Positions 8,832 to 10,844 of a DNA stretch of 35,464 nt are shown piece by piece. Every line of letters starts with the position of its first letter. The first letter of the stretch is position 1. Below the pieces are notes generated by a model. The model was not told the DNA's origin. It ran no database searches and worked only from the letters and a program-made list of their open reading frames with translations. The translations under genes were made by a program, and so were the position numbers. Origin of the DNA: a virus; the IMG/VR virus record IMGVR_UViG_3300036944_000710, positions 1 through 35,464 of that record; one strand, written 5' to 3'.

Positions 8832-9121
8832 GAGTTGCCTTTGCATTTGAATTTCAGCATCACGCTTCCTGGTCTGGCAAACCCTGAGTCAACAACATCC
8901 GTGCTCACTGTCTCCACACCAGTGCCGCGGCTACCGCAGAACGTGCGTGCTTCTTTGTAGGCCTCAGCGATTGCCGCATTAGGTGGACCGAATCCAATCT
9001 GACCGCTCCGGATCGCAATCGCATAGGTGTCGTTATCGGTCTCAAAAACCCCTGTGTTTGCACACCCATAAATCAGGGGCATGGCAAAAATCAGCCCACC
9101 GGAAATTACTCGTCTTCCCAC
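8828..9121 (-). CDS. Second lipoprotein of the immunity operon (97 aa)
   Basis: A GTG start inside the repressor's last codons gives GRRVISGGLIFAMPLIYGC, a signal peptide with Arg pair, hydrophobic core and IYGC; Tyr at -2 is unusual for a lipobox. The mature part has a conserved-looking layout (AIAEAYKEARTFCGSRG ... VMLKFKC) with two cysteines that could pair. A longer upstream frame exists but overlaps cI by 90 bases. An ATG eleven codons downstream would lose most of the signal, so the GTG is preferred. Function unknown; co-expression with cI implies a role in the lysogen. Confidence 0.65.
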   Translation of the reverse strand: MGRRVISGGLIFAMPLIYGCANTGVFETDNDTYAIAIRSGQIGFGPPNAAIAEAYKEARTFCGSRGTGVETVSTDVVDSGFARPGSVMLKFKCKGNS

Positions 9122-9744
9122 TTTCCAATCACGGTTCCTAGCACCTTGAACTGGTCGGTGATTGGCTGATGCATTGGGTTGATTGGCTGAAGCCATATGC
9201 GTCCGTCCTCTTGTTTGAATACCTTGAACGTCACCTCGTCGGAGCCTTCCAGCTTCGCGATGATCCGCTGTCCATTCACGGGTGACTTACGCAGTGGGTC
9301 CACGTAAATGATGCAGCCCTCAGGGTAGGAGCGGGCGTTGCCGTGCGGGGCCGTCATGCTGTCGCCGCGCACCCGCAGTGCGTAAGTGCGCTCGCTGTGT
9401 GTGGCTGGGCATTCGAGCCACCGCTCGGCCTCTCCGGGGTGTAGTGGGTCATGCGCACCATTCCAGTTCCCGGCTTGGACCCATGAAATCAGAGGGATCA
9501 GTCCCTTGGAGTCCGGGGCCTGGTCGACGTTCGCCTGATCTTGGGTCTCCGTGGCATGCCCAAGCAGCTCATCGACAGATTTGCCCAGGGCGCTCGCGAC
9601 CTTGACGTGCCACTCGGCCGGCATGCCGCGCTTCTTCCAGTTGGTGATGTCTTGCGGCGTGCAGCCAATCAGGCCAGCGAAGGCGGTCTGATTCATCCCA
9701 TCTTCGCGGGCCCATCGCAGTGCTTTGACGATCGGTTCTTCCAT
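9106..9744 (-). CDS. cI: Lambda-CI-like repressor with S24 autoprotease domain (212 aa)
   Basis: An N-terminal helix-turn-helix (MNQTAFAGLIGCTPQDITNW, residues 17-36) is followed by a linker and a LexA/CI peptidase domain. The cleavage site A91-G92 lies in WVQAGNW, the nucleophile S129 in RGDSMTAPHG, and the lysine K174 in EVTFKVF. EAERW, YPEGCIIYVDP and LQPINP also match lambda CI closely. It should bind the flanking operators, keep the prophage silent, and be cut after RecA activation. No ribosome site precedes the ATG, and a weak -10 at 9758-9753 would place the transcript start at or next to it, as for lambda cI from PRM. Confidence 0.95.
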   Translation of the reverse strand: MEEPIVKALRWAREDGMNQTAFAGLIGCTPQDITNWKKRGMPAEWHVKVASALGKSVDELLGHATETQDQANVDQAPDSKGLIPLISWVQAGNWNGAHDPLHPGEAERWLECPATHSERTYALRVRGDSMTAPHGNARSYPEGCIIYVDPLRKSPVNGQRIIAKLEGSDEVTFKVFKQEDGRIWLQPINPMHQPITDQFKVLGTVIGKWEDE

Positions 9745-9823: not shown

Positions 9824-10066
9824 ATGAACCATGCATTGCAACGGGCGATAGACGCGTGTAAGGGCGGTCTTCCGCTTTCAGAGCGAATCGGCGCCACAGC
9901 CCAGCGCCTCAGTAACTGGAAAGTCCGCGGCGTTCCCGCCGAGCACTGTCCCGCGATCGAACGCGCGACGGGCGGGGCCGTGCGCTGCGAAGACCTGCGC
10001 CCCGATGTCGACTGGGGTGTGCTTCGCGGTGCTCAGCCATGTGAACAGGCCGCTCATCCGGGCTGA
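9824..10066 (+). CDS. Cro/YdaS-like regulator (80 aa)
   Basis: The protein MNHALQRAIDACKGGLPLSE... with RIGATAQRLSNWKVRGVPAE and the tail RCEDLRPDVDWGVLR matches the YdaS/Cro-type helix-turn-helix family found opposite cI genes in many prophages. It should bind the same operators and promote lytic growth. The helix-turn-helix is at about residues 27-45. The ATG has no ribosome site and coincides with the predicted start of transcription, so translation may be leaderless. Five in-frame codons upstream overlap the -10 and are not used. Confidence 0.88.
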   Translation: MNHALQRAIDACKGGLPLSERIGATAQRLSNWKVRGVPAEHCPAIERATGGAVRCEDLRPDVDWGVLRGAQPCEQAAHPG

Positions 10067-10069
10067 CCC

Positions 10070-10222
10070 ATGTTCAACCTCACTGAAGCCCAGCTCGACC
10101 TGCTGCTGTTCATCGGCCCCCCGGTGTTCGTGCTGCTCGTCCTGGTCTGCGTGGTCGTCCAGCTGTGGCGGGGTGTGCGTGACGAGCACCTCAACCCCGA
10201 CGAGCCGGACAGCTTCAAGTGA
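10070..10222 (+). CDS. Small single-span membrane protein (50 aa)
   Basis: Below the usual size cut-off. MFNLTEAQLDLLLFIG leads into a strongly hydrophobic stretch (PPVFVLLVLVCVVVQLW, residues 17-33) and a charged tail GVRDEHLNPDEPDSFK. It begins three bases after the Cro-like stop, so it is expressed first in the lytic programme. One membrane span with a short polar cytoplasmic or periplasmic tail is clear; function is not. Confidence 0.6.
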   Translation: MFNLTEAQLDLLLFIGPPVFVLLVLVCVVVQLWRGVRDEHLNPDEPDSFK

Positions 10223-10236
10223 GCACAAGTTATGCA

Positions 10237-10354
10237 CCCGCGCACTTCCACCACCCAGCTGTCCCGTCGAAAGACGGCGGCTTTCTCCTCCCTGACGCCG
10301 TGCAAGAGAGGTCTGTTGCCTCTTGCTTGGCTGGGTGAGGTGCGCGGGGTTTTT
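10237..10354 (+). ncRNA. Candidate structured RNA with terminator-like end
   Basis: Two nested stems close this element: CCCGCGCAC (10237-10245) with GTGCGCGGG (10340-10348), 9 bp, and inside it CACCCAGC (10252-10259) with GCTGGGTG (10330-10337), 8 bp. The enclosed ~70 bases hold CCGTC-GAAA-GACGG (10264-10277, a GNRA tetraloop hairpin) and GCAAGAG/CTCTTGC (10302-10308 with 10320-10326). ACGGCG (10274-10279) can alternatively pair with CGCCGT (10296-10301), which would break the GNRA hairpin. Five T follow the outer stem. It lies between genes and could be an early attenuator, a tR1-like terminator or a small RNA. I match it to no known family. Confidence 0.45.
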
Positions 10355-10424
10355 CTTCAGGTCGTCCATGCCCTCATGGTCGATTTTTTTGCCCTGACGG
10401 GGTACTCAAACGGTGTCAAACATC

Positions 10425-10844
10425 ATGAGTAGGTTTGAAGACCAGACGGAACTGGCACTGGCACGACGCCCAGCTCAAGCCAGTGTGCCGATCGAAATGA
10501 TCCGGGCGCAGCGCACAGCCGCCGCCGCCTTCACGCTGGCCTGCAGCGCCTCCGGCCTGGAGGACAAAGAGATCTACCTGCAGCTCGGCATCGACGCCGG
10601 GTACTTCTCCAACATCAAGAAGGGAAAGGCCACGCTCCAATGCGACCTGGTCGGCCCGTTCTGCCACGCTGTCGACAACACCATCTATCCCGAGTGGGTC
10701 GCCTATCAGGTCGGCTGCACCCTGGTGGTCATCCGCACCGAGGCAGAGCGCCGCGCAGATGAGGCCACCCGTCGCGCTGAAGCGGCCGAGGCAGAGAACC
10801 GCCTGATGCGCCAGCTGCTGCAAGGGAAGGCCGCAACACCATGA
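10425..10844 (+). CDS. Putative early DNA-binding regulator, CII position (139 aa)
   Basis: A central segment (GLEDKEIYLQLGIDAGYFSN, about residues 46-65) reads like a helix-turn-helix, and the chain ends in a charged coiled coil (AERRADEATRRAEAAEAENR). Such a DNA-binding domain plus oligomerising tail, second or third after cro, fits the place of lambda CII, but I see no sequence match to CII. A GTG four codons upstream is an alternative start; neither has a clear ribosome site, which is notable because the folded RNA element ends 70 bases upstream. The stop overlaps the next gene as ATGA. Confidence 0.75.
   Translation: MSRFEDQTELALARRPAQASVPIEMIRAQRTAAAAFTLACSASGLEDKEIYLQLGIDAGYFSNIKKGKATLQCDLVGPFCHAVDNTIYPEWVAYQVGCTLVVIRTEAERRADEATRRAEAAEAENRLMRQLLQGKAATP

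Follow-up and report, generated by a model that had tools for sequence, protein, structure and literature searches.

The interval between cro and cII is a classic decision point of temperate phages, and in phage lambda it holds tR1, an intrinsic terminator of the early rightward operon that is crossed in antisense by a CII-type leftward transcript. Regulatory RNAs encoded by phages include C4 of P1 and P7, sar of P22, and OOP and PreS of lambda. In Burkholderia, the C/U-rich unpaired regions of certain small RNAs (sRNAs) are predicted to lie over ribosome-binding sites, and overexpression of ncS27 slows growth (PMC5688073); related sRNAs inhibit E. coli when carried on a cloning vector (PMC7011215).

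The RNA element described here lies in the window (the whole 35,464-base viral contig that was analysed), which belongs to a temperate P22-like phage. It shares with lambda tR1 the position in the early rightward operon, the apparent intrinsic terminator and a proposed antisense crossing, but differs in being a covarying rod of 118 nt with an inner stem, side hairpins and an anti-Shine-Dalgarno loop. With the Burkholderia anti-hemB sRNA (RF02837, ncS04) it has in common the hairpin loop UUCUCCUCCCUGA and a U-tract end; that RNA, however, is a chromosomal sRNA without the enclosing outer and inner stems, and the similarity is weak (17.5 bits for the window and 21.7 bits for another contig, L008, both below the gathering score of 49.5). 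The Betaproteobacterial toxic sRNAs or double-hairpin RNAs (RF02278, ncS27) resemble it in a C/U-rich unpaired stretch predicted to lie over ribosome-binding sites (PMC5688073, PMC7011215), but are about 60 nt long and consist of two consecutive hairpins; the window gave no RF02278 match at gathering, and the element itself had no hit at E values up to 10. C4, sar, OOP and PreS are likewise phage-encoded regulatory RNAs, with positions and structures that differ from those of the window element, and the window has no Rfam match to C4 antisense RNA (RF01695). More broadly, no family of Rfam 15 reached the gathering or E-value threshold for the window element or for seven related loci, in agreement with the preliminary description of this DNA, which had matched the element to no known class.

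The nearest DNA relatives of the window among named phages are Rhodoferax phage P26218 and two Manatee Spring podophages, with matches in virion genes. In bacterial genomes, proteins related to its CII-like protein come mainly from Acidovorax and other Burkholderiales, which makes a comamonad the probable host. The element sits between a Cro/YdaS-like and a CII-like gene, all on the same strand, with a small membrane ORF intervening; the CII assignment is weak. The gap that had been noticed ahead of the regulator gene is real (10223-10424), and no Shine-Dalgarno sequence was found at the window's CII-like gene, as had also been claimed. The features are as follows.

9106-9744, minus strand: S24 repressor gene, ahead of the Cro-like gene in gene order
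9827-10066, plus strand: Cro/YdaS-like gene, upstream of the element (Pfam YdaS_toxin, E=1.3e-20)
10070-10222: small membrane-type ORF, between the Cro-like gene and the element
10237-10354, plus strand: whole RNA element, a structured terminator and putative sRNA (fold z -3.67; match to covariance model R3)
10237-10248, plus strand: 5' arm of the 12-bp outer stem, CCCGCGCACUUC (fold and ensemble; covariation in relatives)
10253-10260, plus strand: 5' arm of the 8-bp inner stem, ACCCAGCU, behind a 4-nt bulge (fold and ensemble; covariation)
10264-10277, plus strand: GAAA-capped 5-bp hairpin, CCGUC-GAAA-GACGG (fold and ensemble; family alignment)
10282-10295, plus strand: C/U-rich anti-Shine-Dalgarno loop UUUCUCCUCCCUGA with CGGC/GCCG closing (unpaired in the ensemble; recurs in relatives)
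10302-10326, plus strand: 3' hairpin of 7 bp, GCAAGAG/CUCUUGC, arms 10302-10308 and 10320-10326 (fold; its counterpart, helix 4, covaries)
10329-10336, plus strand: 3' arm of the inner stem, GGCUGGGU, contiguous with the outer 3' arm (fold and ensemble; covariation)
10337-10348, plus strand: 3' arm of the outer stem, GAGGUGCGCGGG (fold and ensemble; covariation in relatives)
10350-10354, plus strand: T5 tract right behind the outer stem, putative intrinsic terminator (sequence; T tract kept in family copies)
10425-10844, plus strand: CII-like regulator gene, downstream of the element (PHROG 101 CII-like, weak, E=0.0067; position)

Several further features of the flanks were observed. Just 5' of the CII-like ATG, at 10360-10424, a short hairpin and a T7-T8 tract are followed by GGGTACTCAA-N6-TCAA, a block that is kept in many relatives of the CII-like gene, element-less ones included; on the minus strand the motif reads TTGA-N6-TTGA, with the spacing of the CII site in a leftward pRE-type promoter. 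Behind the element in many phages (e.g. L163, L188, L193, L194, L213) there is a CATG-N4/5-GCAGT-N-TC motif, whichever regulator gene follows, and a weak form of it is present at window positions 10367-10384. Contigs L163, L147, L191 and L074 have a second long inverted repeat just 5' of the element, e.g. GGGCGCCCC/GGGGCGCCC, which apparently overlaps a leftward gene's ribosome site and has TTTTC at its end; its arms vary among phages yet stay complementary by eye.

Folding of 10220-10370 gave a minimum free energy of -67.4 kcal/mol versus -51.9 +/- 4.2 in shuffles (z -3.67), and 0/200 dinucleotide shuffles were as stable, so that the control proposed in the preliminary description bore it out. 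The ensemble has a single dominant shape, consisting of the outer 12 bp, the inner 8 bp, the GAAA hairpin, a short hairpin that presents the loop, and the 3' hairpin. All of the nested parts named earlier are present, among them the 8-bp inner stem, the GNRA-capped hairpin and the 7-bp hairpin; the outer stem exists as well, at 12 bp rather than the 9 bp originally given. Outer and inner stem pairs mostly have probabilities of 0.94-1.0 (0.60 and 0.85 for the innermost pair of each), and the loop stretch UCCUCCCU is unpaired at 0.98-1.0. The unpaired C/U-rich stretch complementary to the Shine-Dalgarno sequence is CUCCUCCC; this exposed loop, the most telling feature of the element, had been missed. 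The predicted terminator end was recovered, in that the outer stem is followed by a G and then T5, which is the GC-rich stem and U tract of an intrinsic terminator. Shuffled windows contain on average 0.07 closing stems that are 12 bp or longer and span 60-140 nt ahead of T5, so such a stem by itself is only moderately rare; thermodynamics alone is thus not decisive, and conservation in relatives is the real proof.

Relatives were not readily found by sequence similarity. BLAST of the element or its relatives against phages and plasmids gave no homologue, and protein-anchored and DNA searches yielded one near-identical copy, on contig L025, with a different regulator gene downstream. (At about 3880-4060 of L025 a small membrane ORF accompanies the element, and identity with the window stops abruptly right after the U tract, which marks a module boundary.) Most relatives of the CII-like protein were without the element, showing the slot to be variable. 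A 15-mer of the loop, CTTTCTCCTCCCTGA, recurs in unrelated phages and is identical in L163, L147 and L173; in L106/L163 and L147 it is enclosed by the same arrangement of nested stems, and Phage_CP76 (CII) genes lie downstream. The L106/L163 and L147 copies have many differences, yet 37/37 consensus pairs are kept, 7 of them changed on both sides. As for the 15-mer itself, many exact matches in viral contigs resemble coding sequence, and the hairpin excess among 44 distinct contexts was just two- to threefold (6 versus 2.3 at >=7 bp) and so was not used as stand-alone proof; in 401 genomes there was one exact match, coding-like by eye, which argues against a common chromosomal sRNA there.

A search of 399 genomes of the order with covariance model R1, built from the L106/L163 and L147 copies, turned up three places, which lie in two genomes and have E values of about 1e-9 to 1e-8. 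The second-round model, R2, run on 401 genomes of the GTDB family holding Acidovorax, found nine confident places in seven genomes (E <=2e-6), including those three; borderline genome matches (E 0.003-0.05), about as numerous as chance gives, were dropped. One genome (G024) has three copies (L188, L190, L212) on separate contigs, presumably three prophages. Model R3, made from 11 copies with the window left out, matched the window at 10236-10359 (30.8 bits, E=3e-5 in 794 kb) and L025 at 3.6e-5, the two ranking 2 and 3 in the 794 kb, below a training member. In a 360-genome sample of the class R3's sole match was an already known genome, and the range of the family thus looks restricted.

In the alignment of the 11 copies, 94.9% of cells are paired, 22/31 pairs show both-sided change versus 8.4 in shuffles, with a covariation score of 0.544 versus 0.184, and the signal is destroyed by slid partners; fitting the alignment to R2 biases it towards the structure, yet the shuffled and slid controls were far off. 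Conservation is highest in the outer stem (97.7% paired; both-sided change in 10/12 pairs), and in the inner stem, helix 2, 6/7 pairs changed on both sides among the relatives. With 16 copies (the 11, the window, L025 and three further) the count rose to 29/31, and the compensatory changes that were to be sought in related phages are therefore present. In the window row, 25/30 aligned pairs are standard and 11 differ on both sides from the commonest pair; its 5' bulge is 4 nt versus 7 in the family, and its GAAA hairpin is an insertion relative to most copies. The 3' hairpin loop GGGCAG/GGGAAG recurs among family copies, and their outer stems, too, lead into a T tract. All copies with identified flanks occupy the same slot, with YdaS/Cro upstream and Phage_CP76 (CII) downstream: 5/6 downstream proteins tested match Phage_CP76, four above the curated cut-off, and 2/2 upstream proteins tested are YdaS/Cro-like, while the remaining flanks were read by eye and those of L212 are without assignment. 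From the covariation in relatives, recognition by R3 and the pairs of its own row, the window element is judged to belong, as a divergent copy, to a genuine RNA family. This family is uncatalogued and belongs to phages and prophages of Burkholderiales, so far of the GTDB family holding Acidovorax. It is a new RNA family, though the kind of regulator is already known.

The sequence between the inner stem and the 3' hairpin varies among copies. A C/U-rich 5-mer (CCUCC, CUCCU, UCUCC or CUCCC) is nevertheless present in 13/13 copy loops versus 3.8 expected after shuffling, a comparison for which the words were picked after the data had been seen and in which 4/13 loops had been found through the loop sequence. 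Duplex energies of the loops with the canonical Shine-Dalgarno sequence were not individually better than those of shuffled segments, and a search of the window revealed no clear phage target. A plain anti-Shine-Dalgarno hairpin and terminator occupies the same slot in L008, L056, L063, L066 and L069, and of 63 cro-anchored loci, 9 have a CCUCC hairpin ahead of a T run on the transcribed strand and 3 on the other, exceeding the control words tried (0-4 on the transcribed strand). The loop UUUCUCCUCCCUGA was also seen in simple hairpins of three unrelated phages (L174, L044, L144), with a terminator behind it in two of them, L174 and L044; the L044 hairpin lies a short way upstream of terminase genes.

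The structure, conservation and position of the element, and the exposure and recurrence of its loop, are thus demonstrated, and intrinsic termination between cro and cII is strongly implied by the sequence. We infer that the terminated piece is released as an sRNA and acts on targets in trans. Our preferred reading, held with some confidence, is that an intrinsic terminator occupying the tR1 position would yield a rod-shaped sRNA pairing with Shine-Dalgarno regions in trans. The early rightward transcript would pass cro and fold into a rod of outer stem, inner stem and small junction, and would end at the U tract, such that some of the transcription would not reach the CII-like gene. The 3' piece left by termination, about 118 nt with mutually paired ends, would be freed by processing or arise from its own promoter, and the C/U-rich loop of this small RNA would pair with Shine-Dalgarno regions of mRNAs and lower their translation. 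Host targets are the likelier option, because pairing with the phage's own CII start is unsupported (p=0.64) and no mRNA of the phage is conspicuous as a target. Leftward transcription from a CII-type promoter would run through the element and give an RNA exactly antisense to it, and this antisense sequence holds the window's only GGGAGGAG; that such a transcript neutralises the RNA when lysogeny is chosen is speculation. A more far-reaching version, which we put forward tentatively, is that the terminator itself is the sRNA. This rod-shaped anti-Shine-Dalgarno RNA would be produced at a level proportional to the early transcription that stops before cII, would repress many host or phage mRNAs and would couple the lysis-lysogeny decision to translation, with a CII-activated leftward transcript carrying its antisense.

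It is doubtful, though a serious consideration, that the element is a tR1-like intrinsic terminator only, its elaborate fold tuning transcription of cII and the replication genes and its released RNA functionless. The slot between cro and cII, the GC-rich outer stem right before T5 and the 97.7% pairing of that stem would all be explained, but the conserved inner stem, the recurring GGGCAG/GGGAAG loop and the anti-Shine-Dalgarno loop are needless for a plain terminator, and in other phages a short hairpin and T tract stand beside the same CII-like gene instead. It is improbable that the element is a site for antitermination or protein binding (nut- or put-like, the GAAA hairpin corresponding to boxB), or an attenuator that RNA polymerase passes under the control of a ligand: the hairpin at 10264-10277 is of boxB-like size and lies in the early operon, but most family copies lack it and inspection of the sequence before it revealed no boxA-like sequence. 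The alternative pairing on which a switch had been proposed, ACGGCG (10274-10279) with CGCCGU (10296-10301; CGCCGT in the DNA), does exist in the sequence, but its ensemble probability is 0.001, so neither the competition between pairings nor a regulated switch built upon it is supported.

Action in cis, in which the loop would pair with the ribosome site that serves the CII-like gene further down the same transcript, is very unlikely. The two are adjacent and some relatives have purine-rich starts capable of pairing, but cognate loop-start duplexes were no stronger than mismatched ones (p=0.64), and the window's CII-like gene lacks a Shine-Dalgarno sequence. A peptide from the open frame 10232-10432 (66 aa) is hardly credible; the frame spans the element, and 1-3 frames are open in every copy, but these are in differing phases relative to the loop, copy lengths differ by non-multiples of three, no ribosome site was seen, and both-sided compensatory changes are not expected from coding constraint. 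Coding, cis pairing with the CII start, the alternative-pairing switch and an obvious phage target were thus each considered and none is supported, and the small-RNA option, which the preliminary description had listed among others, holds up as the best reading.

As a conserved, uncatalogued RNA between cro and cII, the element makes RNA control of lysogeny or of host translation in phages of Burkholderiales directly testable. Its exposed loop mimics the 16S anti-Shine-Dalgarno sequence within an RNA of strong covariation, and it would add a family to Rfam.
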